The notes beneath the pieces are model-generated. The model was given only the letters and a program-made list of their open reading frames with translations, was not told the DNA's origin and searched no databases. The translations under genes and the position numbers were made by a program. Of a stretch of DNA of 53,620 nt, positions 2,748 through 50,320 are shown piece by piece (positions within the stretch are counted from its first letter, which is position 1; each line of letters opens with the position of its first letter). The stretch covers positions 1 through 53,620 of the IMG/VR virus record IMGVR_UViG_3300045953_000088, one strand, 5' to 3'. This DNA is from a virus.

Positions 2748-5701
2748 GACGCCCTCGATTTGCGACGCGCCTTTGCCGGCACGTAGTTCGCCTTGACCAA
2801 GACTTCCGCCATCACCGGACAGACAGAATTTCCGATCCTGGCGACCTGGCTGCTCTTGCTGCCAGTGAGGATGTAAGAATCTGGGAATCCCTGTGCTCTC
2901 GCGAGTTCACGCGGCGACAGCATTCGCATTCCGATATCGACGATGACGTACGGCTCGCCGTTGATCGACACGGTGACCAGGCCGAAGCGGTCTTTGCCTG
3001 TGGCGGTCGGCATCGGTTCGATGAGGCTGGCGCCGATCGCCGTGCCAAAGTATTTCACTAGGAAGCTGTAGACGAGGGCGGCGTGGTTTCCGCTCGTGAC
3101 GGTCGGAAGTGGCTCATCGGCCCCATTCCATTGTTTTTCGCCATGGTTCATTCGGATGATGTTCGCGGCGACAAGGCCAGCGTGATTGCCGCCGGCCATG
3201 ACGGTGTTCATCGGCTCGGACGGCGAACTCGGTTGCGTATTGTTCTTAAGATGAATCAAGTTCGCAGCGACAAGCGAGTGATGATCCTTAGCTGTGACCG
3301 TGGATGTTGGGCCGTCGGCTGGGACGCCAACAACGCCGCCAAAGTGCTTGGCAAGGAACGCGGAAACGAGAGCATGCTTCTGTCCGTTGACGCACGTGCC
3401 GAGCGGTTTTTCAAGATCAAGGCACCGCGGCGACTGGCCTTTGCGTTCGGTGTAACCTGTCTGAACCATAGTTGCAGCGACTACATGACGATGATTTTCG
3501 GTCATCAGCGTCCCGATCGGCTCGTCAACTGGCCGCGGCTTGCCGGCGTTCGATGGTCCACCTGCGCCAACGAGACACGCCGATACCAATGCATGATTGT
3601 TGCCGCCAGCATGAACAGTACCCAGTGGCTGATCAGCGGCATTCACTCGCCCGTCGCCAAACGTTGTGCCGGCTGGTCCGTTGCCGTGAGCTAGTTGTGC
3701 TATCACTACGCCGTAGCCGTGCTTTCCCGTCACTGTCGACAGCGGTTGATCAATCGACTGCCCACGAAAATGATCGCCGCCATGTTCGCACCGAACAATG
3801 AACGGAGTCGGATTTTCAAGTACGTACCTCTTGATACCCATCGCGATTCGACGCAGCGTGTTCTCCGCCAGCGGCCGTTTGCGTTCGAAGATCGACGGGC
3901 AAGCAATCGACCAGTCGATGCATTCAGCGGCTGTGCGCCACGGCTGCAGCGTTCCGAACAATGGTTGTGCGTTGATCTTTTTCGGATCGCCATGCGTCGG
4001 CTCTGGCCAAACAACCTTCTGACCGTCGCAACGGGCAATAAGGAAGAGACGTCGGCGATGTGTTGGCGCTCCAAAGTCACTGGCATTCAGGACGCGCCAT
4101 TGCACTTCGTAGCCGAGATTGCGGAGGCGACCGGCCCATCGCTTGAACGAATGGCCTTTGCGCGTTGGATCGGGGACCAGGACGGGAGAGCCGTCGTCGA
4201 GGACCTGACCGACGCCATCGACTATCTTCTGAACCAGCGGGCCCCAGTCTTCGAATTCACGTACGTTTTCGAGAATAATGACGCGCGGCCTAACTTCTGC
4301 AGCCCATTTCACGACAACCCAGGCAAGCGAGCGAATGTGTTTCTTAACCGGCTTGGCGCCTTTCGCTCTGCTGAAATGGGTGCAATTGTGAACTACTATG
4401 CTTTCTGCAACATAGCTTTCGTCCTCATCGACACTTAGATTGTAAACCTCAGTTTGACCGTCAATCCCTGATTCAATTTCTCTAATCGGCGTGTATCGAT
4501 GGAGGTCGTCGCAACGCGTTTGTTCGTGATCGGCATCGACGTGGTGCCGCCATCTGAGTTTGTAAACGTCGCGACTGTTGATTTTTCTCCCCTCAATTTC
4601 GTTCGAATGTTGGTGCGATTTGTAAACAGCAACGGCGTGACCAAATGACATTGCCAGCGACTTAACGCCGAACGCCAATGCCTTTGAGACCGTTGTGGCT
4701 TCCATGAAGTCTTGAGACTTCCAGCCATCACCTGACATGTATCCAGTGAGGAACGCGGCGCGGATCGTTTCTGGCGCGCCAAGCATCCAGCCGGGAATTC
4801 GTTTTTCGTGTGCCAGATGCCCAAAGTTTGTTCTGAGCCAATCAACAAGACCGCGATGATTCGTCGAAAACTGACACGCAGTTTCAAGCTCTCGGAAATG
4901 CCATTCTAGTTCACCAAACTGAGACCGTGCCGAAGATCTTGGCCAGGACGCCAGTTTTTCTTTGAGTGCATTGACTTCGTCTTTCCCACAGATGATGACC
5001 AACTCGGCACGGGTGTCGGTTAGTCTGGTCCATCCGTCAGCCAAATAGCGGCCAGCTAACCACATCAAACGGTCATCTAAATACATGCCGCGACCACCAA
5101 CTTCTGGGATTGCCAGTGGCTCGAATTTTGTCGGCGATGACCAGTAATGACCGGACTGGCTTGCATCACGTCCGGTCAGGGGAGTGAGTTCGCTGGCTTT
5201 AGTCCACTGTGGAGAGTCAAACGTCGGGACGTATCGGCGCACGCTGTTATCCCAAGTGTTTGTTCGGTGGACTGACAAGAACGGATGCTCGCTCGAAACT
5301 GCCAAACCGAAATGTCCGTGACCACGAATGGTCATCGTGTTTTTCACTGACGACATTGTTTGGTTGACGCGGCGCCATCTGCCGCGGTGAGTAAGAACCA
5401 AATCGCCGACGTGAACTTGTTCAATCGGAATATAGCCATCGGCCGTCAAAACAAGCGTCCCGGCCGGGAAGCAATCGGGGCTAGCCCACAGCAAGCCGAG
5501 GGCGCGGCCTTTCGTTAGGCTCGCCGGCTTGAGACTCCAAATGTCGTTTGGATAATGTGCCGTCTCAGGGTGATTTGCCGTGTGCATGGCGATCGCGTCT
5601 GCGTCGTGATTGATCGCGACATCGACACGGAATCCAGCCTGACCGATGCCGAATGAGGCACCGCCTCCGCCGGCGAAACTGTCGATGATAAGCTCACGCA
5701 T
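2744..5701 (-). CDS. DNA (cytosine-5) methyltransferase with in-frame intein and repeated target-recognition region
   Basis: 985 aa from ATG 5701 (AGGGA eight bases upstream; a TTG at 5734 is possible). Removing a 363-residue intein (residues 77-439) leaves a 622-aa C5 methyltransferase. Motif I is DSFAGGGGASFG; motif IV is SPD-C, split by the intein so that Cys440 is the catalytic nucleophile; motif VI is ENV in VIILENVREF; motif VIII is GAPTHRRRLFLIA; motifs IX/X are ARAQGFPDSY and ARIGNSVCPVM. The region between VIII and IX holds seven or more repeats of the form DEPLxTVTxxxHxALVxAxL, as in other phage C5 methyltransferases. Role: phage DNA modification. Activity should depend on protein splicing. 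Confidence 0.92.
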   Translation of the reverse strand: MRELIIDSFAGGGGASFGIGQAGFRVDVAINHDADAIAMHTANHPETAHYPNDIWSLKPASLTKGRALGLLWASPDCFPAGTLVLTADGYIPIEQVHVGDLVLTHRGRWRRVNQTMSSVKNTMTIRGHGHFGLAVSSEHPFLSVHRTNTWDNSVRRYVPTFDSPQWTKASELTPLTGRDASQSGHYWSSPTKFEPLAIPEVGGRGMYLDDRLMWLAGRYLADGWTRLTDTRAELVIICGKDEVNALKEKLASWPRSSARSQFGELEWHFRELETACQFSTNHRGLVDWLRTNFGHLAHEKRIPGWMLGAPETIRAAFLTGYMSGDGWKSQDFMEATTVSKALAFGVKSLAMSFGHAVAVYKSHQHSNEIEGRKINSRDVYKLRWRHHVDADHEQTRCDDLHRYTPIREIESGIDGQTEVYNLSVDEDESYVAESIVVHNCTHFSRAKGAKPVKKHIRSLAWVVVKWAAEVRPRVIILENVREFEDWGPLVQKIVDGVGQVLDDGSPVLVPDPTRKGHSFKRWAGRLRNLGYEVQWRVLNASDFGAPTHRRRLFLIARCDGQKVVWPEPTHGDPKKINAQPLFGTLQPWRTAAECIDWSIACPSIFERKRPLAENTLRRIAMGIKRYVLENPTPFIVRCEHGGDHFRGQSIDQPLSTVTGKHGYGVVIAQLAHGNGPAGTTFGDGRVNAADQPLGTVHAGGNNHALVSACLVGAGGPSNAGKPRPVDEPIGTLMTENHRHVVAATMVQTGYTERKGQSPRCLDLEKPLGTCVNGQKHALVSAFLAKHFGGVVGVPADGPTSTVTAKDHHSLVAANLIHLKNNTQPSSPSEPMNTVMAGGNHAGLVAANIIRMNHGEKQWNGADEPLPTVTSGNHAALVYSFLVKYFGTAIGASLIEPMPTATGKDRFGLVTVSINGEPYVIVDIGMRMLSPRELARAQGFPDSYILTGSKSSQVARIGNSVCPVMAEVLVKANYVPAKARRKSRAS
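4385..5473 (-). other. Intein with LAGLIDADG homing endonuclease, inserted at the catalytic Cys of the C5 methyltransferase
   Basis: The encoded segment is 363 residues. It starts with Cys (CFPAGTLVLTADG, block A), has a block B-like SSEHPF, two LAGLIDADG-type motifs (WLAGRYLADGW and FLTGYMSGDGW), a block F-like VYNLSVDEDESYVA, and ends VVHN before Cys+1 (block G). It is in frame with both exteins, and joining the exteins gives the expected motif IV (ASPD-CTHFSRAKG). The motif set is that of a full-size, mobile, splicing-competent intein. Boundaries were set from the first Cys codon (5473-5471) and last Asn codon (4387-4385). Confidence 0.93.
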
Positions 5702-5746
5702 TCGAATCGTCCCTGAGTTTCCCTGCCATCTCAAACGGCATTCGGA

Positions 5747-14233: not shown

Positions 14234-15355
14234 TTACCCGATTTTTTTGGCCGTCTCGATCGCCAATTTCAATCGCTGTTTGTCGGTGTAAATCTTTGTC
14301 GTCTCGAGCGAGTGATGACCTAACACGGCCGCTGCCGCGGGCAATCCGCCAACTTCTTCCGCTCGATGGCCGGCGGAGTGCCTGAGCTGGTACAGACACC
14401 ATGGCTTGACCTTCGCTGCCTTGATGGCGCGGCGAATGGCCTGGGCGTAGCCGTTCTCGAGATAGTATTGTGCACCGTTGCGGCGCTTCGCCGGCGGGAA
14501 GATATAGCCATCGGGTTCGGCAGCCATGAACCAGGGCGCCAAGGTCTGTTGCGCGATTGGGCCCAGAGCGATTACGAGCGTTTTTTTTCGCCATTTGTTT
14601 TTGTGCTTGCTTGGCCGATAGAGCCAGATCCCGTCCTCGCATTGTTCAATCTCGCATCGACGCATTCGGCAAACATTATCTGGCCTCATGCCCGCGTGGT
14701 ATTGCACGGTGAGCATCGCTCGGACGACCGGCGCCATGAACTTCAAACACGGTTTGACTTGAGCTTCCCAATCAGCCGGCTCGCGATCGGGATGATCGAA
14801 TATCCGCGGATCGTTGATTTCGAGCGGCTTCACCGTTCGAAGATGCTCAGCGATTCCCATCGGCAAGATTTCCGTGGACTCGCCCCAACTGAACACAATG
14901 ATGATTCGTTGCACGGCTTTGTTGATCGTGTTGCGGCACCATGGTCCGCACTTCTCTTTTTCTTCGTCCGTCATCCAGCGTTGGTCAATCATCGCGTCCC
15001 GGGTTGCGCGCAGGCGATTGGCCCGATACTCGCCGGCTTGGGTCGGCCCGAACAGACGAGAAAGCGGCACGCATGCGCGAGCGACGCGTTGCACCTGGGG
15101 ATGATCGAGTCCGCGAGGATCTGCTTTGAGGCAGCCGGCAATTAGTTCGTCAACGGTCATGCCCAGCGAAGACGGCAGCGAGGGCATGGCGAATCCGAGG
15201 GCATGCTCGGCGCGAAGTCGCTCGTATTCCTTATAGCTTTCAGGGCTGCCATACTTGCCAAGGTAGTGAGACTTTCCGTTGATCTTCACCCGAGCGCCGC
15301 CGCCGTGTATAAGCGGTTTGGCAGGATAAATAGGGAATGGCTTTGGTCGAGACAT
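14234..15355 (-). CDS. int: Tyrosine recombinase / phage integrase
   Basis: 373 aa from ATG 15355 (GGAG upstream). The N-terminal arm region includes LGKYGSPESYKEYERLRAEH, a pattern I associate with planctomycete integrases. The catalytic domain has Arg I in AGMRPDNVCRMR, the central block LYQLRHSAGHR (the first His of HxxR is Tyr), LGHHSLETTKIY and the nucleophile Tyr in TKIY. Predicted role: integration and excision at a tRNA-Arg gene. Its start is about 105 bp from the putative attP, the usual arrangement. Confidence 0.92.
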   Translation of the reverse strand: MSRPKPFPIYPAKPLIHGGGARVKINGKSHYLGKYGSPESYKEYERLRAEHALGFAMPSLPSSLGMTVDELIAGCLKADPRGLDHPQVQRVARACVPLSRLFGPTQAGEYRANRLRATRDAMIDQRWMTDEEKEKCGPWCRNTINKAVQRIIIVFSWGESTEILPMGIAEHLRTVKPLEINDPRIFDHPDREPADWEAQVKPCLKFMAPVVRAMLTVQYHAGMRPDNVCRMRRCEIEQCEDGIWLYRPSKHKNKWRKKTLVIALGPIAQQTLAPWFMAAEPDGYIFPPAKRRNGAQYYLENGYAQAIRRAIKAAKVKPWCLYQLRHSAGHRAEEVGGLPAAAAVLGHHSLETTKIYTDKQRLKLAIETAKKIG

Positions 15356-15419
15356 GCGCGACTCCTTTCGCGTGATTGTCGGCGTGTCTTGCGCCGGAAC
15401 AATGCCCTGAAAGTCCTGC

Positions 15420-15459
15420 GGGAGCGCGGCGCTCCCAGAGGACATACAGAAGTACTGTA
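15420..15459. promoter_or_regulatory. Two short palindromes between int and attP
   Basis: GGGAGCG-CGG-CGCTCCC at 15420-15436 and TACAG-AAGTA-CTGTA at 15445-15459. Neither is followed by a T tract on the - strand. Their position between attP and the integrase start suggests binding sites for the excisionase-like protein or a regulator of int. Confidence 0.45.
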
Positions 15460-16453: not shown

Positions 16454-16735
16454 TCATTCATCATCGCCGTCGAACAAATCCAAAATAGCCTTGATGAGTG
16501 GCACGAGGATTTGAATCAACGCCGCGAATTCCTTCGGTAGGAACGCCGTCCAATCAATATCGCCGATGCTGGTGAACTTCCCATCCGCGATCAGCTTTTG
16601 CGCCGCCGCGTTCTCGACGTTGCCAAGGATCCGCTTGCGTCGCGGCCGGCTTCGTGGCAGCGCCAAGATGCGGCGCAACTTGCGGTCTTGCGCGGTCAGT
16701 TTCGGTTTGTTCTCAAGGAAATTCGACAATTTCAC
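16454..16735 (-). CDS. Hypothetical protein
   Basis: 93 aa from GTG 16735, directly after the lipase stop. A basic N-terminal half (KLTAQDRKLRRILALPRSRP) and an amphipathic or hydrophobic C-terminal segment (FLPKEFAALIQILVPLIKAI) precede an acidic tail DGDDE. Possibly membrane-associated. Its location right after a lipase suggests a linked exit role, but no family is recognised. Confidence 0.5.
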   Translation of the reverse strand: MKLSNFLENKPKLTAQDRKLRRILALPRSRPRRKRILGNVENAAAQKLIADGKFTSIGDIDWTAFLPKEFAALIQILVPLIKAILDLFDGDDE

Positions 16736-16736
16736 T

Positions 16737-17339
16737 TCAAAAGCTCGGCTCAAGAGGCACCTCCAGTTGTTCAAGGACGGCACGATATGCCGCGAGATAG
16801 TGGTCTTCGATGATGTCGAGGTCCTGAAATCTCCGGCCGATCTGTGTTAGCGGCCGCGGATGAAACCAGCCAAACGGCACACGCGGAACGGGATCGTCGG
16901 CGTTGCAATAGTCGGCGCCGGGAATGTTCTTCAGGAAAGCCGCCAGGCCGCTGCCGGCGAGAAAGCACGATCTTGGCGAGCCGAACGTCGTGAGCTTCGT
17001 CACCTGTCGCCCGCCGGCGGAGAACATGCCCGCGAGGATATGGGCCTCGGCGCCACCTTTGGAATGGCCAGTGATGACAATGGGCCCTTCGCTCGGGATC
17101 TTTGCCCAAACCGATTTGACGGCCGTAAGAAATCCGGCGTGGATCGAACCAAGATGTTCGTGCGTGAATGGAATCTTGACGAAATCTTGCAACCAGTCAC
17201 GCGGCGAATTGGTGCCACGGAAGGAAATGACCTTTGCACCCTTGTAGTCGGTGAGAAGGACGTGGATGCTGCCCGTGTCGATCGTGCAGGGGCCGTAGGC
17301 TTGGGCGGCCAGGTCGCAAAGTTCGATGTCGGAGATCAT
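16737..17339 (-). CDS. Class 3 (alpha/beta-hydrolase) lipase
   Basis: 200 aa, ATG 17339. It has the Lipase_3 motif order: VISFRGTNSPRDWLQD (oxyanion region), HAGFLTAVKSVW, the nucleophile elbow VITGHSKGGAEAHILAG (Ser in GHSKG), NADDPVPRVP (catalytic Asp) and EDHYLAAYR (catalytic His). No signal peptide. Being next to a metalloprotease and not far from a holin-like gene, it may help break host membranes at exit. A virion or entry role is also possible. Confidence 0.85.
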   Translation of the reverse strand: MISDIELCDLAAQAYGPCTIDTGSIHVLLTDYKGAKVISFRGTNSPRDWLQDFVKIPFTHEHLGSIHAGFLTAVKSVWAKIPSEGPIVITGHSKGGAEAHILAGMFSAGGRQVTKLTTFGSPRSCFLAGSGLAAFLKNIPGADYCNADDPVPRVPFGWFHPRPLTQIGRRFQDLDIIEDHYLAAYRAVLEQLEVPLEPSF

Positions 17340-17342
17340 GTC

Positions 17343-17495
17343 TTACTGCTTTCGCTTCTGGTGCTGGTATCGCCTCCAACGTTTCCGCTCGCGACGTTCG
17401 AACGCCGCTTTCAATCGGTCCATGTATGGGTAGTCACCCTTGCGGAAACGATAGCGCGCGTGAAATCGCCGTTTGTATTTTTCGTCAGCGTTCAT
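17343..17495 (-). CDS. 50-aa very basic protein
   Basis: ATG 17495 overlaps the matrixin stop as ATGA; the stop is 4 bp before the lipase ATG. The product is highly basic (YKRRFHARYRFRKGDY, then a C-terminal Arg/Lys/Gln run) and has no hydrophobic segment. Function unknown; nucleic-acid or membrane-surface binding is likely from charge. Confidence 0.55.
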   Translation of the reverse strand: MNADEKYKRRFHARYRFRKGDYPYMDRLKAAFERRERKRWRRYQHQKRKQ

Positions 17496-18370
17496 ACCTT
17501 CTGCAGTTCCACCGTCGTCGGCTTGTACCCCGCCGCCTCGATCTTCACCGCCAACGTGCCCACCGGCGGCGCCGGGGTTGGCGGCGGAGGCACCGGTGTC
17601 TGCGCCGCGCCGTACAATTGACGGATTCTCGGAATGTCGTCGTTGGCTTGCGGGCTGATGATGATTGCCGAATAAAACGGGGCCATCAACGCCGACGACG
17701 TTCGCGAGTGGTCAAGCCCCAAGAGATGGCCGAACTCGTGACAGGCGACGTTGCGAAACAGGATTCCGCCTTGCGGGTTTCCAGCCACCCAACGCTCATC
17801 AATGTCGAACCTCATGAGCAATTGCTGGTCTGAGCCGTTTGGCAAGAATGCCCACGCCAACGTCCCACCGCCTCCGTCCATGCCTTGCGAGGGCCCGCGC
17901 CCAGTCGAAATCACAATGTCAGCCCCTTGCTGGCTCATGACTGGTGTCAACACCACGTCAGCCGCGGCCTGCCAGTCATTCCACGCGAGGCGAATCAAGT
18001 CGTCCTGGTCCGATTGGCTGATCCCTCTGACATAAGCCGCGACGAAATACGTGAGCCGATTCTTGCGCCAGCGAGCTTCCTCGATCGACACGAGAGAACG
18101 CTGCGCATCGGTACAGCCGCACCGTGGCTCGGTCATCTTGGCGAGAGTTTGCACGTCGATTTCGCCGTTCGCGTTGACGCCGGCGATCGACTGGAACAAC
18201 GCCAGTGCTCGCTTGATGTGCTCGATGCGTTCGTGGATGGTGATGCCGACGGCGAGAAATCGCGGATCGATGTAGCCGTAGTGCGTGAGGTATTCCGCCA
18301 CGCGCTTGACTTCGGGGAGATGGCGGCCGAATGCGCCGGCCAGTGCGATGAGGGTCGAGAGGTCGAACAT
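17492..18370 (-). CDS. Matrixin-type zinc metalloprotease with peptidoglycan-binding prodomain
   Basis: 292 aa, ATG 18370. Residues about 50-80 form a PG_binding_1-like helix set (IKRALALFQSIAGVNANGEI). It is followed by PRCGCTD (residues 82-88), which matches the cysteine switch PRCGxxD of matrix metalloprotease prodomains. The catalytic domain has WNDWQAAADVVLTPV, the zinc motif HEFGHLLGLDHS and a Met-turn ALMAPFY. A Pro-rich linker leads to a short beta C-terminus. No signal peptide is evident, so release may depend on the holin. Plausible role: latent protease acting on the host envelope during exit. Confidence 0.85.
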   Translation of the reverse strand: MFDLSTLIALAGAFGRHLPEVKRVAEYLTHYGYIDPRFLAVGITIHERIEHIKRALALFQSIAGVNANGEIDVQTLAKMTEPRCGCTDAQRSLVSIEEARWRKNRLTYFVAAYVRGISQSDQDDLIRLAWNDWQAAADVVLTPVMSQQGADIVISTGRGPSQGMDGGGGTLAWAFLPNGSDQQLLMRFDIDERWVAGNPQGGILFRNVACHEFGHLLGLDHSRTSSALMAPFYSAIIISPQANDDIPRIRQLYGAAQTPVPPPPTPAPPVGTLAVKIEAAGYKPTTVELQKV

Positions 18371-18398
18371 TGCAATTCTCGCATTGGGTGTCTATAAT
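18370..18398 (+). promoter_or_regulatory. Sigma70-like promoter on the + strand
   Basis: TTGCAA (18370-18375), 17-bp spacer, perfect TATAAT (18393-18398). It points away from the matrixin start and towards a terminator only about 40 bp on, with no + strand gene in between. Confidence 0.55.
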
Positions 18399-18404
18399 TC
18401 CAAT

Positions 18405-18467
18405 GCTGAAGTGCTCAGTGGTTTTTCTTCGATATGGCCTGACAGGTCACAACTGTCAGGCTTTTTT
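18405..18467 (+). ncRNA. Candidate small RNA, about 60 nt
   Basis: Bounded by a TTGCAA-17-TATAAT promoter and a rho-independent terminator (GCCTGACAG/CTGTCAGGC at 18437-18461, then TTTTTT). No coding potential. It lies in the 96-bp gap between the Gln/Val-rich gene and the matrixin gene, opposite to their transcription, so it would be antisense to the matrixin leader. The hairpin's T tract lies only on the + side. Confidence 0.5.
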
Positions 18468-18832
18468 CATCTCACTACCGTCCGCGTCCGCACAACCGAC
18501 CTTTGCACTTGCTGGACCTGTTGCACCTGGACGCGCTGCACAACCTGCCGTTGCACTACGACATTTTGCACAACCGGAACATGAACCGCCTGCACATGTT
18601 GGACAACTACTGGTTGAGCATACACTGGCTGCACAACTTGCTGGACAATCTGTTGCTGCACGATCGGCTGCACGGCGACGGCTTGCAACTGCACCACGGG
18701 CGCGGCGGCAACGACGAGACGTTGACGCACGACCGAGAACACGGCGGCGTTGTTGCACGAGTAGCATTGAGCGAACGACGGGGTCGCGAGAGTCGCGAGG
18801 CCAATCAGGGCAAGAGCGGCAATTCGAATCAT
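18467..18832 (-). CDS. Exported Gln/Val-rich low-complexity protein
   Basis: 121 aa from ATG 18832 with GGAG upstream. Signal peptide MIRIAALALIGLATLATPSFA, cleaved before QCYSC. The rest is almost wholly Gln/Val/Ala with His and Pro (a VVQ-type repeat) and a basic end. Its VVRQRLVVAAAPVVQ segment resembles VVRQRVVHQAAAVQ after the signal peptide of the neighbouring cytochrome, suggesting a shared envelope-associating segment. Such exported QV-rich proteins are, to my knowledge, common in planctomycetes. Function unknown. Confidence 0.65.
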   Translation of the reverse strand: MIRIAALALIGLATLATPSFAQCYSCNNAAVFSVVRQRLVVAAAPVVQLQAVAVQPIVQQQIVQQVVQPVYAQPVVVQHVQAVHVPVVQNVVVQRQVVQRVQVQQVQQVQRSVVRTRTVVR

Positions 18833-18869
18833 GGGAAACTCCATTGGGTAAAAGGCGAAACAAGAATTT

Positions 18870-18890
18870 GAGTCTTTGAGTCAAAGACTC
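18870..18890. repeat. 21-bp near-perfect palindrome
   Basis: Arms GAGTCTTTGA and TCAAAGACTC around a single G, just after the small cytochrome gene and before the Gln/Val-rich gene. It could be a hairpin shaping mRNA stability between the two, or a binding site. Confidence 0.6.
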
Positions 18891-18896
18891 ATAATG

Positions 18897-19469
18897 TCAT
18901 TTCAGTGTGTCCAGCCAAGCCATGACCAAACCCACGTCGGCATCCGCGAGCCCCTTGGTCCCCTTGGGCATGCGATTTGAGAACACCTCGCGTGCGATGT
19001 TCAATTTGTCCCTGTCTGTAAACTTCTCAGCGAGCTTGTCACCGTCGAACAGTACAAACCCATTGCCTTTCTGAAACGCCTTGTCGCTGTTGTGGCAACT
19101 CGCGCAGTTCTTGCGAAGGATACCGACGCCTGGATGCTCCTCGACGGCAAGCTTCTTTGGCGGCGCTTGCAATTTCTCCGGCTGTTGCAATTGCAGCTTG
19201 AGCATTTCGAAATCGTTGCGGAGTTTTTGCAGCTCGATTTCCGCGCGAAGGCGTTGCAGTTCACCTTGCGTGTTGTCAGCGTAAGCGACTGAATAAGCTG
19301 GAATCGCAACCGGCACGAATACCGCCTGCACAATTGGAGCGACGTAATCGTAGTGCTGCACGGCGGCGGCTTGATGGACGACACGTTGACGGACGACGCA
19401 GCCGCTGCCGTCGGCGACTGGCGCGATGGTGATGAGGGCGAGCAAGGAAAGGCAGACAAGAAAACGCAT
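18897..19469 (-). CDS. Exported class I c-type cytochrome
   Basis: 190 aa, ATG 19469 with AGGAG upstream. N-terminal signal (RFLVCLSLLALITIAPVA), then GSGC (a weak lipobox-like Cys24), a Val/Gln/Ala-rich stretch (residues 25-62) and a coiled coil (about 68-96). The C-terminal cytochrome c domain has heme-binding CASCH (122-126), and FSNRMPKG supplies Met167 as likely axial ligand; it ends VGLVMAWLDTLK. Predicted periplasmic electron carrier or heme protein. Its stop is followed by a palindrome. c-type cytochromes are rare in phages, so this is probably host-derived. Confidence 0.88.
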   Translation of the reverse strand: MRFLVCLSLLALITIAPVADGSGCVVRQRVVHQAAAVQHYDYVAPIVQAVFVPVAIPAYSVAYADNTQGELQRLRAEIELQKLRNDFEMLKLQLQQPEKLQAPPKKLAVEEHPGVGILRKNCASCHNSDKAFQKGNGFVLFDGDKLAEKFTDRDKLNIAREVFSNRMPKGTKGLADADVGLVMAWLDTLK

Positions 19470-19478
19470 GATGAACTC

Positions 19479-20945
19479 CTATTGTTGGTGTCCTTTGAGG
19501 ATCAACTGAGCCGCGCCGTAAGAATCTTCCCACACTCGCACCGGCACCCGATTTAATCGCGGATTCTGAAGTAGCATCGACGACAAGACGGTATCGCCGC
19601 TCCCACTCCGCACGCTCGCGTCCAGTGCCTTCCACCATCGTTCCACCGAAACGCCAAGGTCCGCTGCGGCCTCGGCAAGCCCGATCTTGGCATCCTCGTA
19701 TCGCTCCCACTCGGCTGCGTAAGCGGCGGCGAATTCCTTTGGCTCCCAGCCGCCCGTAATCTCGCGAACGGCATTCGCGAACACGGCGCGGTCTTTCTCG
19801 ATGAACGGCTCGAGTTTTCTCGCGTACTGCCGGCGCAACTCACGCACGCGGTCAAAATCCGGCGAACGCAATTGCAACGGCGGTGTCAACAGGTTCCGCA
19901 CCCAGCCGTCGAGGTCCTGCAAACCTCCATTCGCATGACACCGAATGCACGAGACATTGACATGCACGCGGCGATCGTTGCTCTTGCTCATGCCGTCGCT
20001 GGCGATATTGTCTGGTGCGCTCGCCTGCACTTTGCCTTGGCGGTCGAACAAACCAGTTGCCCACAGTCCATTGGGCAGGTGTCCGAATTGCTCGCTCGCG
20101 TCGTATTCCTTGTCGATTTCCCGACCGAGCACACGCAACGGATTCTTGTTGCCCTTCACCTGGCCAATGTCAAGCGTCTTCCAGAGTGAGCCTGTCACGG
20201 TGCCAAGCCGCACGATTGCTCGAGGATGGAGCGTCACACCACTATCGGCAACTGCCTCGCGGAGCTCGGCCCCGAGATCCTCGGCACGCTTGACGTCGGC
20301 GCCGATCGCCTTCTGGAACGTCGCCTCATCCTTGACACCGAGAAAATCGTAATAGTTCGGCGATCGATCCGCGGCAGCGGCCGTCTGATTGAACCACCAG
20401 GCCGCATGAACGACTGGCGCCTTGCTCCCCGTCCATTGCACGACTTCGGCAAGCCGCTTTTGTGCCGCGGCCGTGTCGCTCAGCCACGGGGCCAGGGCTT
20501 GGCTCCGAACGGTTTTCTTGTACCTGAACGCACCTTGCGGATAGTAACGTCCATCATCGCGCCACGTTCCACCTTCCCACGGCGTTTCTACTGTCGTCTC
20601 GACCATCGCCGTGAAATACGGGTCGAGCAATTTTTCCCACGTTGCCTTGTCCCATCGGTAATCGCGAAGGTCGATCCTCACGAGCGAGCCTTGCGTGCCT
20701 GGGACGATCGCGACAGGCGTCAGGTCAGGCTCGCGGCTCAGGGCGTTGCAATGGGCGTTGAGAACACGGATGAAACGCTCGCGTTCTTTCGCCGGCGTCG
20801 CGTACAAGCTCAGGTATCGCAGCCTGGTCTTGTCGCCGGCGATCTTCGCCAGGTCTGCATGCGCGGCTGCAATCGCATCGGACGGGGACAACGAGCCCTG
20901 TCCCTGACCTATGGCGAGCAATACGAATGTGGAGAGGGAAACCAA
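19479..20945 (-). CDS. Large exported protein with one CxxCH heme motif
   Basis: 488 aa from TTG 20945, with GGAGG five bases upstream and a stop codon just before it. Short hydrophobic N-terminus (MVSLSTFVLLAIGQGQGS), probably a signal peptide. Residues 30-320 are a mixed domain with WWFNQTAAAADRSPNYYDFL and a Trp-rich middle. CIRCH at 333-337 is a covalent heme site in HVNVSCIRCHANGGLQDLDG, followed by a helical C-terminus. It ends 10 bp before the small cytochrome gene, so the two form a pair. The family resembles planctomycete cytochrome-containing proteins of unknown role. Confidence 0.8.
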   Translation of the reverse strand: MVSLSTFVLLAIGQGQGSLSPSDAIAAAHADLAKIAGDKTRLRYLSLYATPAKERERFIRVLNAHCNALSREPDLTPVAIVPGTQGSLVRIDLRDYRWDKATWEKLLDPYFTAMVETTVETPWEGGTWRDDGRYYPQGAFRYKKTVRSQALAPWLSDTAAAQKRLAEVVQWTGSKAPVVHAAWWFNQTAAAADRSPNYYDFLGVKDEATFQKAIGADVKRAEDLGAELREAVADSGVTLHPRAIVRLGTVTGSLWKTLDIGQVKGNKNPLRVLGREIDKEYDASEQFGHLPNGLWATGLFDRQGKVQASAPDNIASDGMSKSNDRRVHVNVSCIRCHANGGLQDLDGWVRNLLTPPLQLRSPDFDRVRELRRQYARKLEPFIEKDRAVFANAVREITGGWEPKEFAAAYAAEWERYEDAKIGLAEAAADLGVSVERWWKALDASVRSGSGDTVLSSMLLQNPRLNRVPVRVWEDSYGAAQLILKGHQQ

Positions 20946-20960
20946 ATAAGCCTCCGTTGC

Positions 20961-21089
20961 TTACACGCCGTCAAAATGCTTCGCATATCGCGGCCAATAA
21001 ACCGCGTCCCAAATCGTCTCGCCAGTTCGCAACAGAACTTCCGCCAAGAGCAAGGGACAGGCGAGAGCGATGTCGAGCGTCTTGTTCAC
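20961..21089 (-). CDS. 42-aa small protein with hydrophobic N-terminal half
   Basis: GTG 21089 with AAGGG upstream. MNKTLDIALACPLLLAEVLL then RTGETIWDAVYWPRYAKHFD. It fills the gap between the holin-like gene and the cytochrome genes and ends 15 bp before the large cytochrome start. The amphipathic or hydrophobic helix suggests membrane association. No family recognised. Confidence 0.45.
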   Translation of the reverse strand: MNKTLDIALACPLLLAEVLLRTGETIWDAVYWPRYAKHFDGV

Positions 21090-21180
21090 GGATGAGGTCA
21101 ACCCTTACTTTGGTTTTCCGATTTCCCCGATTCACGATTGGCAAACGGCAATTTACAATTCCCACCAAAAGGAGGTTGCC

Positions 21181-21288
21181 ATGCAACAGCACATCCAGCA
21201 ATCAGTCCCCGCTACTTGGTGGACCTGGGAGCGCGTCCTTGCTATCGTCGTTTTCTTTCTGTTCGCCTTTGTCGTCTCGAACTACTAA
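21181..21288 (+). CDS. 35-aa single-span membrane protein on the opposite strand
   Basis: ATG 21181 behind a near-perfect AAAGGAGG site seven bases upstream. A polar, Trp-containing N-terminus (MQQHIQQSVPATWWTWER) is followed by one hydrophobic helix (VLAIVVFFLFAFVV) and SNY. It is antisense to the C-terminal codons of the holin-like gene. The ribosome-binding site and clean transmembrane helix argue for translation; no clear + strand promoter is visible. Confidence 0.45.
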   Translation: MQQHIQQSVPATWWTWERVLAIVVFFLFAFVVSNY

Positions 21289-21621
21289 TTGCTCCGGCCA
21301 ACCTATCGCCCTCTTTCCTGCTCGAATCAGCATCTTTCCCAACGCCGCTGCGCCCTCTTGCTCCGTCGCGTGAACCACCGTCTTGCACGCCAAGAACCCA
21401 ATGAGTCCGATTGCAAAAGCTGTCGCGTGAATCTCATGCTTGTCCGTCCAGTCCCGCCAGGCACAAACGAACGGCGTGAGCCAGAAGGACGCCATCGAGC
21501 CGATGCTCAACGTTCCGGCGCTGCGCCAGAACGACTTCCGATCCGGGCGGATGAAGGCGAACACGAACGCGCCGGCGGCGCCAGCCAGGAACATTGTTAG
21601 CTCTTGCGGTAATCCGTCCAT
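21202..21621 (-). CDS. Holin-like membrane protein
   Basis: 139 aa, ATG 21621. Three hydrophobic helices (about residues 8-25, 36-54, 66-85) separated by short charged loops, then a charged C-terminal tail rich in Lys/Asp/Glu. Size and topology fit a class I holin. It is located after the tail-fibre genes and ahead of the hydrolase genes. Assignment is by topology and context. Confidence 0.6.
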   Translation of the reverse strand: MDGLPQELTMFLAGAAGAFVFAFIRPDRKSFWRSAGTLSIGSMASFWLTPFVCAWRDWTDKHEIHATAFAIGLIGFLACKTVVHATEQEGAAALGKMLIRAGKRAIGWPEQLVVRDDKGEQKENDDSKDALPGPPSSGD

Positions 21622-21817: not shown

Positions 21818-22186
21818 TCAGTCGCGTAGGATTTCGTTCGTGCTGGCGTCTTCAACATTCTTGACAACTTCAAACTGAACGGGCTCGCCCCAAAGTTTGT
21901 TGCCGCTCAAGTCAGTGCAATAAAACTGGTACATCCAAGTTCCAATAGCCGTGAACGTGTGGGACGACACTTTAACGGTGCCGTCTGCCGCAACAACAAT
22001 CGAACCTGTTAGCACGTCGGCTACGGAGTAAGAAGTGCCGCCGAGTTTTAGTTCACACTTAACCTCGTTGACTGAGAAATCAGTTAGCAAATTGATCGGC
22101 AAATTGGTCACCGCATCGCGAAACGCGTAAGGACCGATCGTCACCGGCATGTTTACGCGAACAGGATAATCAAATTTCACTGTCAT
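21818..22186 (-). CDS. Phage tail/fibre accessory protein, beta-rich
   Basis: 122 aa, ATG 22186 overlapping the fibre gene stop (ATGA). MTVKFDYPVRVNMPVTIGPY opens a beta-sandwich-like sequence with VLTGSIVVAADGTVKVSS and TAIGTWMYQFYCTDLSG, typical of small virion accessory or receptor-binding attachment domains. No enzymatic motif. Probably associates with the fibre encoded just upstream. Confidence 0.55.
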   Translation of the reverse strand: MTVKFDYPVRVNMPVTIGPYAFRDAVTNLPINLLTDFSVNEVKCELKLGGTSYSVADVLTGSIVVAADGTVKVSSHTFTAIGTWMYQFYCTDLSGNKLWGEPVQFEVVKNVEDASTNEILRD

Positions 22187-24114
22187 ACGCCGACCTCGAT
22201 TGAGCGAACTGTGTCGCCCGCCGATATGAGCGATGGGACGGTGTTCCCGTTGGCAGAAATCCCCATGGTAGTAAAGCCGACAGCACTAATAAGGAACCGC
22301 GGCGTGCCAGCGACAGCCAAGATCGGGTCCACGCCGGTCAGTGAGTAGGTCCCAGCTTCTGTAGTCAGAATGTAAATTCGAGAGAAGGTCAAATCGTTTC
22401 CGGTCTGGCTGTAGACGCCAGCGTCGATCGACATCGACTTGCCGCGAGACATCGAAGGATCAATGCCAGTGAGCGCGTACGTCCCAATGTCCGGTGAAAC
22501 TACTTGGCCGCGCAGTAACATCGGATCAACACCTGACAGAGCATAGTTGCCAGCGTCTGTCGCCATTACGGCCGCTCGCTGTAAAGCTGGATCGATCCCG
22601 GACAATGTGTAGGCGCCGACATCCACTGCAAGAACACAACCACGCGACAGCGCTGGATCAACTCCAACCATGGTGTAATTGCCAATGTCGGTAGCTACGG
22701 CTCGGTTGAATTCGAGGGAAGGATTGGCACCGGTGAGCGTGTAACTGCCGACGTTGCAATTCAAGACGAACGCACCAGTTGGCGTGTAAATTAATTCAGG
22801 CTCAACGCCGATGACTGAGTAAGAGCCAACATCCACGGCAACGACATGTGCTTGAAGTAAGGCAGGATCGACGCCAGTGAGTGAATAAGCTCCCACATCT
22901 GGAATGATGGTATGGCCGAACAACAACGATGGATCAATGCCAGTCACCGCATAAGAACCAACGTCTGGTGAAACTACGTGCCCATGCAAGAGTGCGGGAT
23001 CAACTCCCGATAGCGTGTATGAACCAACGTCGGGAGAGACTTTCCTGCCGAACGCAAGCGAAGGCTCAACGCCAGACAGCGCATAAACGCCGGCGTCTAT
23101 GTCCATCGTGATGCCGCCGGTGTCGTGAATGAAATCGCCGTAGATGCGACCTGGCACCGCCATCGGCATCATGTCGGTGATAGGTCCAGGTGCAGGTCGA
23201 GGCGTGCCTCCCTCGCTCATGTCCACGTCGATGCCGGTGAGCGTGTAACTTCCAACGGCGAGGACAATTTGTAGTGCTTTCAAAAACGTAGGTTCGACAC
23301 CAGTTAGAGAGTAACTTCCTACATCTGGATCGGTTTTGTAGCCGTGAACGAAGGTAGGATCGACGCCGATTAACGTGTAGCTCCCAACATCCGAATCAGT
23401 TCTGTGACCAAATTGCAAGGATGGTTGAACGCCACTGACAGCGTAACTTCCGACATCGATGTCGAGACGATAATCCTGGAAAATGTCTGTAGAGAATTCA
23501 ATCCACGGATTATTCGCGGCGGTAACGGTCTCGTTCTCAGCGATGTCCGTACCACTGTTGCTTCCCATCGAAAGCGAACCTGTTACGGACGAGCCGCCCG
23601 CACCGCTGACCTGGCCGCCCAACTCGACTACAAGGTAATCTCCGGCAACCGTGGTGTAAGTTGATCCGTGGCTGGCCATCGTGTCGCCGTCGCCAAAGGT
23701 CTTGCTCGTCAGCGTGCCATTTACCCATTCCGTAGTGTTCGGTCCATAGTGCCCAAGCGACTTGAGCGTTGCTTGAAGCGTGGTGCCGTTGTAAATCTTG
23801 ATCGCAATAGGCTGCCGGTTGAGGTTGTCGTTCGTCGCGCTCTCCATGCAACGTATGTAACACTTGAAAGTCGCCGTGGTCAGGAACTGCGTGCCGACTT
23901 TGATGAAAGGTCCGCTAAACTGCACTGCAAGCGCCGTCGCGTCAGCGGCCGGGTTCGTGTTTCCGAAAATGGTCAGACTCGACATGGCCGTGCCGTCTTT
24001 GGTCGTGCGCATAATGCGACGCACGCCGTCCGAGTTCCGCGTCCAACCACCGTCGAACGACGGCGAGTTGGGCGGAGCGGTTGTGGACGACGTAAAGTAG
24101 TAGCGCGTGACCAT
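22183..24114 (-). CDS. Tail fibre with about 18 GSYTLTG-type repeats
   Basis: 643 aa from ATG 24114 (TGATG overlap with the previous stop; GTG at 24117 is possible). The N-terminal 210 residues form a beta-rich virion domain (TRYYFTSSTTAPPNSPSFDG ... WIEFSTDIF). From about 215 to 600 there is an array of roughly 21-residue repeats, DVGSYTLTGVDPALLHGH being a typical unit, in two blocks split by a Pro/Gly/Met-rich insert (DMSEGGTPRPAPGPITDMMP). Repeats of this kind occur in fibrous phage tail proteins. Likely elongated host-recognition fibre. Confidence 0.75.
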   Translation of the reverse strand: MVTRYYFTSSTTAPPNSPSFDGGWTRNSDGVRRIMRTTKDGTAMSSLTIFGNTNPAADATALAVQFSGPFIKVGTQFLTTATFKCYIRCMESATNDNLNRQPIAIKIYNGTTLQATLKSLGHYGPNTTEWVNGTLTSKTFGDGDTMASHGSTYTTVAGDYLVVELGGQVSGAGGSSVTGSLSMGSNSGTDIAENETVTAANNPWIEFSTDIFQDYRLDIDVGSYAVSGVQPSLQFGHRTDSDVGSYTLIGVDPTFVHGYKTDPDVGSYSLTGVEPTFLKALQIVLAVGSYTLTGIDVDMSEGGTPRPAPGPITDMMPMAVPGRIYGDFIHDTGGITMDIDAGVYALSGVEPSLAFGRKVSPDVGSYTLSGVDPALLHGHVVSPDVGSYAVTGIDPSLLFGHTIIPDVGAYSLTGVDPALLQAHVVAVDVGSYSVIGVEPELIYTPTGAFVLNCNVGSYTLTGANPSLEFNRAVATDIGNYTMVGVDPALSRGCVLAVDVGAYTLSGIDPALQRAAVMATDAGNYALSGVDPMLLRGQVVSPDIGTYALTGIDPSMSRGKSMSIDAGVYSQTGNDLTFSRIYILTTEAGTYSLTGVDPILAVAGTPRFLISAVGFTTMGISANGNTVPSLISAGDTVRSIEVGV

Positions 24115-24413
24115 CACTCTTTCTTGCCGCCGACGGTTAAATTCTGACCGAGGACTCCAAGTCGACCAGGCTCGCAGGCCATGACAAAGTGCCGCTTGCC
24201 TTCGCTGTCCACTTCATACGGCGGCGCCGTTTCAAACTTGCCGCTCGCGATGATTTGAGACACAAACGAACGCCCTTCGCGCGGCTTCCCCGTTTCTGTC
24301 CAGATCACTACGCCCGTATCAACGTCGATCCATTCAACCTTGACGCGACCAGGCTCCGGGATCGATATGCGAGGGCGCAGCGTTCCTTGATACTGCTTGG
24401 CGATGTCAGCCAT
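24114..24413 (-). CDS. Hypothetical virion-region protein
   Basis: 99 aa, ATG 24413. MADIAKQYQGTLRPRISIPE then VEWIDVDTGVVIWTETGKPR; short strands throughout and a Lys-rich end (GGKKE). No known family or membrane segment. The stop overlaps the fibre start, so it is translated with it. Confidence 0.5.
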   Translation of the reverse strand: MADIAKQYQGTLRPRISIPEPGRVKVEWIDVDTGVVIWTETGKPREGRSFVSQIIASGKFETAPPYEVDSEGKRHFVMACEPGRLGVLGQNLTVGGKKE

Positions 24414-24779: not shown

Positions 24780-25253
24780 TTACGCCAGCGTGAACAAATC
24801 AGTTGCGAAATTCAAAGTGAACGTCTCACCGTTGGCGAGCGTTACGTCCGAACCATAATCGAAATAACAAATGAGCGGATCGGCCGGCGAGGTTGGATCA
24901 TCGTTGTAAATCGCGACGTGCCGAAACGTCGCAACGGCACCCGAAGCGGTCAATATGAGGTCATCCACGGTGAGATGCACCGTTCCTGTCGTGTGCTCAG
25001 CCGTTACGCCGGTGATGACACGAGAAGAGAGGTTCGTGTAGCTGATCTGCGTCAAGTTGCCGAGGATCGAGTTCGTAGCCACCGGCGCGTTGGCATTCGT
25101 CGTGAGCGCCACCGTGAGCGTACACGTCGAGTCCGAGGTAAAATTGTGGACGCCCTTGCACAGGTCCTCAACGAACTGTTGGAATTTCGAATAAGTAACT
25201 CCAAGAATCAGCAAGGGGATAACAAATCCTAGCAACGAAAAAAACTCAAACAT
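24780..25253 (-). CDS. Virion protein with an unusual hydrophobic N-terminal extension
   Basis: 157 aa from ATG 25253 with AAGGAG upstream. Residues 1-18 (MFEFFSLLGFVIPLLILG) are a hydrophobic helix. From YSKFQQFVEDLCKGVHNF onward it follows a common phage virion domain (beta-rich, LTVALTTNANAPVATNSILG ... FTLNFATDLF) that usually starts near the KF/NQFVEDL segment. The added hydrophobic lead lies directly after an inserted homing endonuclease gene, whose end it overlaps by 8 bp. Confidence 0.6.
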   Translation of the reverse strand: MFEFFSLLGFVIPLLILGVTYSKFQQFVEDLCKGVHNFTSDSTCTLTVALTTNANAPVATNSILGNLTQISYTNLSSRVITGVTAEHTTGTVHLTVDDLILTASGAVATFRHVAIYNDDPTSPADPLICYFDYGSDVTLANGETFTLNFATDLFTLA

Positions 25254-25833
25254 GGTTCGCTCCTTGAATAAGACTCTGCTCGCGCTTTCGCTTAAGTGCG
25301 GCTTTAATGGACTCGGAAAGTCGTTGTCTATGCAAAAGAGAATGTGGGCCCCGTTTTTTACCTTGCTTTGCGAGAGACAAAGCACGTCGGTGAGCATCAG
25401 ATTTTGGGATTCCCTTTAGTGGACTTGATTTCCCAGATTTCTTGTATTTCATCCCAACGCGCAACTTGTTGCTTTCTGATACCCTCATTTTGCCGTGCGC
25501 GGAGAGTGGTTTTCCGGTCATTCTCTTTGAAACGCTTTCGGCGAATTTTCGTCGTTGCCATCCATAAATTTTGTTGTTGTGTCTTTCCCCTTGATTCTTG
25601 TTTCCTCCAGTCATCATGAATGACGCCCAGAGCAAGCCTTCGCTGTGCGGATAAATCTTAACCAACAGCAAATGAGCCACGTAATGCTCCTCTGCTGTCA
25701 ATCGAACGATATTGGAATCGTCATCAGATCCACCGAGACATTTTGGCTGTACGTGATGTCGCTCAGAATATCCATGAAGGATTCTTGACTTTGCTCTCGC
25801 CATCAAACGGTCATAATGCGATTGATAGTTCAT
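25246..25833 (-). CDS. HNH homing endonuclease with NUMOD3 motifs
   Basis: 195 aa, ATG 25833. HNH core: SERHHVQPKCLGGSDDDSNI then VRLTAEEHYVAHLLLVKIYP. The C-terminal half is basic, with SPLKGIPKSDAHRRALSLAK and RLSESIKAALKRKREQ, matching NUMOD3-type DNA-binding repeats of free-standing homing endonucleases. The region is visibly more A+T-rich than the flanking genes, indicating separate origin. Sits between two virion genes and is presumably mobile. Confidence 0.88.
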   Translation of the reverse strand: MNYQSHYDRLMARAKSRILHGYSERHHVQPKCLGGSDDDSNIVRLTAEEHYVAHLLLVKIYPHSEGLLWASFMMTGGNKNQGERHNNKIYGWQRRKFAESVSKRMTGKPLSAHGKMRVSESNKLRVGMKYKKSGKSSPLKGIPKSDAHRRALSLAKQGKKRGPHSLLHRQRLSESIKAALKRKREQSLIQGANHV

Positions 25834-48317: not shown

Positions 48318-48319
48318 GT

Positions 48320-48550: not shown

Positions 48551-50320
48551 TTAATTCCAAAGGTCCCCGGGCTTGTATGGCGGCGGCGCCGTCGCCGACC
48601 AGAACAAAGCGCGTCCGATGCTCATGACGGCCGCAGTAACACCGTCGATCTTCTCCGGAGATTTTTCTTTGCTTGGCTTCACGAGGTTGCCGCGACGTTC
48701 AGCTACGACATTAGACACCATCCAACGCATGACAGGATCGCCGGCGTGATGTAGGCGCTCGGCTGACAACAATTCCAAGAACTCCCGGAACGGCGCCGCC
48801 ATACTAAGAATGCCTTGGGGAAATTGAAAGATCTTGCGGTCACCGTACTTCTTCTGCAGGTTGGTGCTCATCTGACCGCCCTGGAAGCCGCGGTCGAGTG
48901 CAAAGTCGCGGAACGTGTACGGCGCCAGCAGTTCTTCAATGTCCACGAGCACCATGTCATAATCGACAGAGGATCCTGGCGTTGCTCGGATGAACCCCTC
49001 TTTGCGCCAACCATCGATGACAGCTTGCATGCGATGATCGCGCTTGACAGGTTCCTCCGGCAGCCAGAATGTCATCAGTGCCGTGAAACTGCGGCGAACG
49101 ATCCGCCGTGATCCGATTGGTTTGCCAACGTCGTCAAAGCTCGGAATCTCGACAGTCACGGCGTCATCATGCGGAAACAGTCGGCAAAGTGCAACGAAGT
49201 CGGACGTGGCGCCGATGTCGAGCGATGGATAGCATTCACGACCTTTCAGGGCCGAGAGGTCGATGTTTCGCTTGCCGGCGTCCCAGAGGTGCATCTGAAT
49301 GAGACGTTCCGCTGTCGAAGTCTTTTGGTTTAGGTTCAGGCGCCGGAACGTGTTCTCGTATGCCGGAATCTCTTGCGCACGTTTGCACTCTCGACGCAGA
49401 TAATCGAGCGAAACAGAAACGCCAAGATTGGGATTTGCCTTGATCCAGTGTTGTTCATCTCGCCAGTCAACGTCGCGCGGAACTTCGTAGATAACCGGCA
49501 AGAACGTTTGGTCGTTAATGATGCCGTCGCGCACCTTGCATGCGTATTCGTATTTCTCATTGCAAATCGACGGTCGATCGTAGTCAGCCGTCGTGATGCA
49601 GATAAACAACGGCTGCTTTCGGTTCGAGCTGGCGAACGAAGTCTGGAAGACGTCGACCAGGTCGCGATTCGGTTGCACATGCAGTTCGTCGATGATCGCA
49701 AGGTGCGTGTTGCCGCCGTGCTTGCCGGGTGCGTCGGCGCTGATGACGCGCAAGTAAGAATGATCTTCTTCTCGGGCGATCGACTTTGACTGTCCGGCGG
49801 TCGCGTTGCCCCCGTAAATCTTGCAGCGAGATTCAAGCTCGGGCTCGGCTTCAACCATTCCCTTGCAATGACGGAACAACGCTCCGGCTTGTTCTTTCTC
49901 GCCGGCGGCGATGAAGTCCTGCTGGCCCTTCTCTTCGTCGGTGAAAAACACCAGCAACGCCAGGCCTGAGACAGTCGGCGTTTTGCCGTTCTTGCGCGCC
50001 ACATACAGCAGCGACTCGCGATAACGACGAACTTTTCGGCCGTGCTCATCACGTCGTTTCCAGCCCATCAAATTCGCGATGAAAGACTTTTGCCACGGCT
50101 CAAGTACAAACGGCTGGTCCGCGACTTCACCTTCGACGTGGCGCAAACACTGGGGAAAGAAATCGAGTGCGAGCTGCGCGGCGCCGGCATCAAACGACGC
50201 GTCGCCGGCCGTGGCGATCGAATCGTAGCCAGGAATAAGCAGCAGGATATCGCGCCACTCTTGCGGAATTTCAGAGGGCCGAAAGATGCCTGTCGGAAGT
50301 TCAGTTGCTGTCGCGACCAT
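48551..50320 (-). CDS. terL: Terminase large subunit
   Basis: 589 aa, ATG 50320. Terminase_1 family: the adenine-binding region VLEPWQKSFIANLMGWKRRD, Walker A-like VARKNGKTPTVSGLA, Walker B LAIIDELH, the coupling motif ITTADYD, and a nuclease domain with CYPSLDIGATSDFVAL, VDIEELLAPYTFRDFALDRG and KIDGVTAAVMSIGRAL supplying the acidic residues. Powers DNA packaging with the portal and cuts DNA. Confidence 0.95.
   Translation of the reverse strand: MVATATELPTGIFRPSEIPQEWRDILLLIPGYDSIATAGDASFDAGAAQLALDFFPQCLRHVEGEVADQPFVLEPWQKSFIANLMGWKRRDEHGRKVRRYRESLLYVARKNGKTPTVSGLALLVFFTDEEKGQQDFIAAGEKEQAGALFRHCKGMVEAEPELESRCKIYGGNATAGQSKSIAREEDHSYLRVISADAPGKHGGNTHLAIIDELHVQPNRDLVDVFQTSFASSNRKQPLFICITTADYDRPSICNEKYEYACKVRDGIINDQTFLPVIYEVPRDVDWRDEQHWIKANPNLGVSVSLDYLRRECKRAQEIPAYENTFRRLNLNQKTSTAERLIQMHLWDAGKRNIDLSALKGRECYPSLDIGATSDFVALCRLFPHDDAVTVEIPSFDDVGKPIGSRRIVRRSFTALMTFWLPEEPVKRDHRMQAVIDGWRKEGFIRATPGSSVDYDMVLVDIEELLAPYTFRDFALDRGFQGGQMSTNLQKKYGDRKIFQFPQGILSMAAPFREFLELLSAERLHHAGDPVMRWMVSNVVAERRGNLVKPSKEKSPEKIDGVTAAVMSIGRALFWSATAPPPYKPGDLWN

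Follow-up and report, generated by a model that had tools for sequence, protein, structure and literature searches.

A heme-motif protein and a class I cytochrome c encoded beside lysis-type genes in a tailed temperate phage and its relatives

Introduction

Phage lysis cassettes combine an adjacent holin, interchangeable cytoplasmic hydrolases, and a tight same-strand late gene order, and we know of no described lysis cassette, nor of any described phage genome, in which c-type cytochromes are a recognized part. Phage-encoded electron carriers are described from another setting: the plastocyanin or ferredoxin of cyanophages are electron-transfer auxiliary metabolic genes (AMGs) that serve photosynthesis. 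Here, a block of three genes, named OrfA, OrfB, and OrfC, is analyzed in the IMG/VR virus record IMGVR_UViG_3300045953_000088. The window, meaning the whole stretch of DNA that was analyzed, is the entire record of 53,620 bases. The block shares the holin, the interchangeable cytoplasmic hydrolases, and the gene order with known lysis cassettes, and in planctomycete prophages it also shares their position beside the terminase; however, its hydrolases are largely proteases. Like the cyanophage genes it encodes a predicted electron carrier, but this carrier belongs to a putative covalent-heme pair of an unnamed family that is tied to hydrolases and has no pathway genes. In the open literature searched, no earlier report was found of phage c-type cytochromes of this kind, of planctomycete phage lysis, or of planctomycete gene transfer agents, in agreement with the first-pass annotation of this DNA, which had called phage c-type cytochromes very unusual.

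OrfA and OrfB form a conserved gene pair in phages and prophages, where the two-gene OrfA sequences make up a single clade and stand beside interchangeable lytic-type hydrolases. We give even odds to the proposition that the block serves as a redox arm in a lysis or envelope-exit module of Planctomycetota phages.

OrfA, OrfB, and OrfC

The first-pass annotation had reported a pair of exported c-type cytochromes and a third exported protein. The three reading frames are present on the minus strand, with 9 nucleotides (nt) between the adjacent OrfA and OrfB and 52 nt between OrfB and OrfC:

19479..20945, minus strand: OrfA, predicted exported protein of 488 amino acids (aa) with one CxxCH motif, unnamed family (open reading frame, alignment, and model)
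19935..19949, minus strand: OrfA heme c motif C333-I-R-C-H337 (Cys/Cys/His invariant in 79 sequences)
20951..20955, minus strand: GGAGG ribosome-binding site, 5 nt ahead of the OrfA TTG start
18897..19469, minus strand: OrfB, exported class I cytochrome c of 190 aa with a single heme motif, predicted His/Met ligation (motifs and alignment)
19092..19106, minus strand: OrfB heme c motif C122-A-S-C-H126 (alignment and sequence)
18969..18971, minus strand: OrfB M167, predicted axial ligand (invariant in alignment)
18467..18844, minus strand: OrfC, 125-aa exported Val/Gln-rich low-complexity protein with signal peptide (sequence)

OrfB is the conventional member of the pair. It has a clear signal peptide, and an alignment of 47 sequences shows no variation at C122, C125, H126, M167, or P168. 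With class I cytochromes c (Cytochrom_C/Cytochrome_CBB3, PF00034/PF13442) it shares the CxxCH motif, the Met-Pro ligand, and a conserved Trp/aromatic C-terminal helix. It differs from them in being phage-encoded, in a long Val/Gln/Ala-rich and helical N-terminal extension, and in scoring just below the Pfam cut-offs (24.4 bits against PF13442, with a cut-off of 27 bits). In a fold search, OrfB matched a sulfite dehydrogenase cytochrome subunit, but only weakly (E=1).

OrfA is less easily placed. Its CxxCH motif is invariant across 79 sequences that align to it at 21-30% identity, along with Y198, R242, E285, and G340. The conservation of the motif, like the pairing with OrfB described below, goes beyond chance. 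Positions 290-297 belonged to the search pattern for most of these relatives, and their conservation is no evidence. No conserved Met or His ligand besides CxxCH was found in the 79 aligned sequences, and OrfA had no match in Pfam, NCBIfam, or PHROGs. The AlphaFold2 model built from the 79 sequences is confident, with a mean predicted local distance difference test (pLDDT) of 85.8 and a predicted template modeling score (pTM) of 0.86, and Foldseek searches with it against PDB and BFVD returned nothing at E<=0.001. Assignment of OrfA to the class I cytochromes c was rejected, as it has no conserved distal Met/His and its confident model has no PDB match. A MauG/CcpA diheme peroxidase or another known fold was rejected as well, given the single CxxCH and the lack of a Pfam or fold match; the two-heme unit of the fused relatives described below and the invariant Tyr and Glu in the heme-motif domain resemble these peroxidases, a resemblance only. 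Judging by the model, OrfA may be a heme protein of a new fold, and putatively a heme enzyme. Its predicted export rests partly on relatives whose signal peptides are clear, because that of OrfA itself is short and weak and does not begin with basic residues.

The earlier description holds for OrfB, and the axial Met that it had thought likely is supported there. For OrfA the heme motif stands, but the signal peptide is weak, no Met is conserved, and the protein belongs to an unnamed heme-motif family without a detectable solved fold.

Relatives in viruses and planctomycete prophages

Single-sequence patterns of OrfA and OrfB and the two-sequence alignment A1 gave no relatives, but a DNA pattern for LPNGLQ[AG]Y did; this pattern selects for the motif itself, so that the conservation of those columns carries no weight. 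By tblastn of OrfA against phage genomes one record was found, the 595-kb uncultured phage LR756511.1, which carries OrfA, an OrfB-like cytochrome, and a Val/Ala-rich exported protein in the order of the window. Another 14 IMG/VR contigs of 19 to 343 kb were recovered with the motif DNA pattern and a profile-guided search. The pair is thereby present in 15 viral contigs besides the window, including the 595-kb huge phage, with L150 and L151 coming from the same sample and perhaps from one phage. Phage identity was confirmed where tested by terminase, portal, sheath, baseplate, or tape-measure matches (G001; G003 and G008 pooled). In other phages, OrfB is likewise followed by proteins of OrfC-like composition. 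Homology of OrfC to the third protein of the 595-kb phage was considered and dropped as not demonstrable at such low complexity. The same applies to the VVRQR segment that the first-pass annotation had noted: it occurs in both OrfB and OrfC, but homology could not be demonstrated.

G002/L017 was discarded as phage evidence because its OrfA carries additional fused domains and clusters with Poribacteria. This sequence (L017/L179, IMGVR_UViG_2740892559_000001) encodes a 1426-aa fused diheme protein with leucine-rich repeat and other domains and is probably host sequence that either flanks a prophage or was taken for one. Several further features were observed around the viral loci. In LR756511.1, a second OrfA paralogue elsewhere in the genome adjoins an exported cysteine-peptidase-like protein (weak C39 match). 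An exported family without a Pfam match ('FDEGFVTLQA..VKWLV') lies upstream of OrfA in 11 viral loci, including L021 (5111-5836) and L002 (7565-8320). In G003, the cassette gene for the papain-like peptidase (L164, 9156-11138) contains an intein with a LAGLIDADG endonuclease, and in G008 (L167, 14651-16221) a YceI-domain protein and an exported 345-aa CISCH protein adjoin the cassette.

Relatives were also found in Planctomycetota, where profile A5, built from huge-phage sequences, found fused proteins only and profile A10, which includes the window, also found split forms. With A10, 140 of the 398 genomes searched in Planctomycetia yielded an OrfA relative, and many of the top-scoring ones were short and unfused. 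The split cassette occurs at about 18 Planctomycetia loci, at least 11 of them with portal and terminase genes. In ten loci the cassette adjoins a common set of genes, among them a terminase and a lambda-type portal (Terminase_6C at 6.8e-6 in the one tested; portal at 1.7e-15 and 3.5e-20 in the two tested), and G554 has homologues of the window TerL and portal near the cassette. Loci L269 and L271 are without verified phage genes. The phage context that the first-pass annotation had proposed to look for in homologues is therefore found in both viral contigs and Planctomycetia genomes.

The Planctomycetia phage-like elements (L261-L276) comprise TerS, TerL, portal, a tail-tube-like protein, and the cytochrome cassette, and are compact, with about 18 kb in G664. 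In three genomes they adjoin the same gene of the chromosome, a MoaB-like molybdopterin gene (L261 12679-14351, L265, and L268). These elements might be domesticated prophages or gene-transfer-agent-like.

Phylogeny and fused bacterial relatives

In the maximum-likelihood tree, the split OrfA genes form a single group with a Shimodaira-Hasegawa-like approximate likelihood ratio test (SH-aLRT) support of 100, and the fused bacterial proteins fall outside it. Sub-lineage i consists of the window and four planctomycete loci (SH-aLRT 99), sub-lineage ii of thirteen viral sequences including the huge phages (SH-aLRT 98), and sub-lineage iii of fourteen planctomycete loci (SH-aLRT 100). The G001 and G008 phages place with Nannocystis outside the split clade; their genes group with Myxococcota, and they represent an independent capture. 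Fine placement is tentative, since the search behind the support values was a short one and several of the viral rows are long.

Outside viruses, the OrfA domain was found in Planctomycetota, Alphaproteobacteria, Myxococcota, Poribacteria, Verrucomicrobiota, Acidobacteriota, and Armatimonadota. There it typically follows one or more CxxCH domains in a single fused protein; in 92 proteins the domain immediately ahead of it is a CxxCH domain, and the N-terminal heme domain of some fusions is recognized as PSCyt1. These unnamed diheme or multiheme proteins (e.g., L056 in Singulisphaera, L041 in Afipia, and L112 in Nannocystis) unite a homologous OrfA domain with a cytochrome domain of the OrfB kind (PSCyt1/Cytochrome_CBB3-like). 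Because bacterial proteins fuse both domains, OrfA and OrfB are likely to work together.

While the bacterial relatives are single fused chromosomal proteins with mainly OmpA as neighbors, the phage form consists of two genes, has its own clade, and stands beside lytic-type hydrolases. Among the 25 commonest of 66 families of same-strand neighbors, OmpA leads for the bacterial fused genes with 25 of 99, and the peptidases listed account for 5 of 99 (four caspases and one subtilase).

Chromosomal fused proteins include a Ser/Thr kinase in Singulisphaera and DUF4384 in Afipia and Rhizobium, and their genes have OmpA or caspase-like genes nearby (L056, L062, L101, L041, and other bacterial loci), which suggests an undescribed envelope redox-signaling family. 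Such architectures, the caspase-like neighbors (4 of 99), and the frequency of OrfA relatives in Planctomycetia would fit a counter-defense or signaling mimic, in which the phage pair imitates or intercepts bacterial redox sensing based on the fused homologue. This is highly improbable, as the caspase neighbors are few and phages retain the entire OrfA-OrfB pair plus a peptidase of their own.

Linkage to lytic-type hydrolases

Of 34 viral and prophage-like loci, 30 have OrfB as the gene immediately downstream of OrfA and one has the two fused, so that the pairing holds in 31; two of the other three are truncated by contig ends. Of the 32 split-clade loci, 26 have a peptidase next to OrfA, drawn from three unrelated families: a matrixin in five loci (the window, L258, L259, L260, and L269), a subtilisin in ten (S8 match E=4e-61), and a papain-like peptidase in eleven, counted as ten plus a weaker match in L263. 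The shared matrixin agrees with the grouping of its five loci in the tree. In sub-lineage iii, a small membrane protein lies ahead of the peptidase in nine loci. Representative cassette peptidases have no signal peptide and in this resemble holin-dependent endolysins. The independent capture shows a similar linkage: in G001 a VanY-type endolysin immediately follows the fused OrfBA, and in G008 OrfB and an Amidase_2 gene share a 4-nt overlap. Exchange of the hydrolase for unrelated ones with retention of the redox pair is the pattern expected if both act in the same process.

In the window, the block has the holin on one side and the matrixin with its peptidoglycan-binding-like domain, the lipase, and the integrase on the other. 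It sits amid a larger exported and lytic neighborhood at about 16454-21621:

21202..21621, minus strand: holin, directly upstream of OrfA (phrog_2359, E=2e-9)
17492..18370, minus strand: matrixin (M10) peptidase with a PG_binding_1-like domain and no signal peptide (homologues beside OrfA in L258, L259, L260, and L269)
16737..17339, minus strand: Lipase_3-type esterase, no signal peptide (family matches)
16454..16783, minus strand: small protein with a hydrophobic C-terminal helix, a possible module member (weak, by inspection)

The PG_binding_1 match of the matrixin reaches 20.1 bits, below the 23-bit cut-off. Clear endolysins are those of G001 and G008. Several points weigh against a lysis role. 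The papain-like match to Pfam Peptidase_C1 falls below the cut-off, L153, L158, L176, and L177 have no recognized peptidase directly beside OrfA, and the window matrixin lies two genes downstream of OrfA rather than directly upstream. Conversion genes, moreover, often adjoin lysis and terminase genes too.

The hydrolases would be coincidental if the pair were AMGs, namely an extra periplasmic carrier and a redox enzyme that sustain host respiration or redox balance, one of the two roles offered by the first-pass annotation. By sequence OrfB is a conventional His/Met electron carrier, the virus genome is real, the genes have homologues in hosts, and the cassette occurs in large viral contigs; large phages often carry auxiliary genes. 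Bacterial fused genes also sometimes have ferric-reductase-like neighbors (4 of 99). The split form is nevertheless a phage and prophage clade of its own with no known pathway, and what accompanies the cassette are the swapped peptidases and the endolysins of the second capture, not any known respiratory partner or pathway gene. We therefore consider an AMG role unlikely.

Source phage and genomic setting

The window is a genuine tailed temperate phage, because genes were identified for the large terminase, portal, S49 peptidase, major head protein, head-tail connector, tape measure, holin, and integrase. Its minus strand carries most genes between 14 and 53 kb, and the block lies on the late strand of a real phage, as the first-pass annotation had it. 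Two of these genes bear on host and lifestyle:

48551..50320, minus strand: large terminase (identity of 46-52% to its best matches, found in Planctomycetota prophages)
14234..15445, minus strand: tyrosine integrase (marks the phage as temperate)

Against 50,697 phage records, the terminase reached about 36% identity at most among the matches listed, compared to 46-52% in Planctomycetota prophages, and on this sequence comparison the host is most likely a planctomycete. An assembly chimera was rejected: GC content, codon usage, and strand of the cassette are continuous with the rest of the phage, there is no foreign mark in codon usage, and the cassette was found again in many independent contigs and genomes. 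That a host contig had been taken for a phage was rejected for the window by its phage genes and terminase matches.

The setting also bears on lysogenic conversion, the second role offered before, in which the pair would be a moron expressed from the prophage and altering the host envelope or redox state, e.g., against superinfection or for host fitness. The phage has an integrase, its cassette is placed with lysis genes on one side and the integrase gene on the other, prophage-like loci hold many of the relatives, and the proteins are predicted to be exported. Viral contigs of 340-595 kb also carry the cassette, however, which argues against a purely lysogenic role, and the accompanying peptidases, in the representatives examined, have no signal peptides. 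A promoter search of the cassette region gave matches no more than chance and none on the coding strand. Conversion appears quite unlikely.

Other features of the window were observed apart from the block. A C5 cytosine DNA methylase is split by an intein at 2744-5734 (Hint, LAGLIDADG, and intein-splicing matches), and an HNH/homing endonuclease gene lies among the virion genes at 25246-25833 (phrog_655, 1.5e-50). Just upstream of the holin region, 22183-24117 encodes a 644-aa protein with many 'VGSYTLTGVDP' repeats, probably a tail or fiber protein. The 1013-aa portal protein at 45459-48500 is an unusual fusion, its C-terminal half matching DUF3626.

Discussion

A role in lysis or envelope exit fits the neighborhood better than either role proposed before, both of which are retained as rivals, because of the adjacent holin, the three peptidase families over three sub-lineages, the endolysins in the second capture, and the occurrence in phage contigs of 340-595 kb. 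Under the favored explanation, OrfA and OrfB would be exported and given covalent heme by the host cytochrome c maturation system. OrfB, as a His/Met cytochrome c, would carry electrons between the periplasmic respiratory chain of the host and OrfA, and OrfA, with its invariant Tyr/Arg/Glu set, would perform envelope redox chemistry, e.g., on cross-linked envelope proteins. Alternatively, OrfA may act as an electron drain that depolarizes the membrane and makes the holin fire. The holin would then release the cytoplasmic hydrolases, here the matrixin with its peptidoglycan-binding-like domain and the lipase, which would complete the breakdown of the envelope.

It is possible, though we lean slightly to doubt, that Planctomycetota phages and the phages of the separate capture rely for lysis on a dedicated heme redox device of two components, an exported His/Met cytochrome c and a new-fold heme enzyme, that takes a working part in the process. 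By analogy with the endolysins of classical lysis cassettes, the partner hydrolase of such a device would have been swapped among three unrelated peptidase families. No system described so far includes the OrfA heme family or pairs it with lysis-type genes, as far as we know. If the AMG role were true, the module would be a variant of something known instead.

OrfA defines a widespread heme-motif protein family that is absent from Pfam and NCBIfam and for which no solved fold could be detected. The occurrence of the pair in a 53-kb phage, in viral contigs of 340-595 kb, and in prophages, together with its linkage to interchangeable proteases, suggests that envelope redox chemistry may be needed for phage exit or, alternatively, that the respiratory state of the host may be used for timing lysis. 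Planctomycetota have unusual, protein-rich envelopes. How phages lyse these bacteria is essentially unstudied, and the present work names candidate genes.

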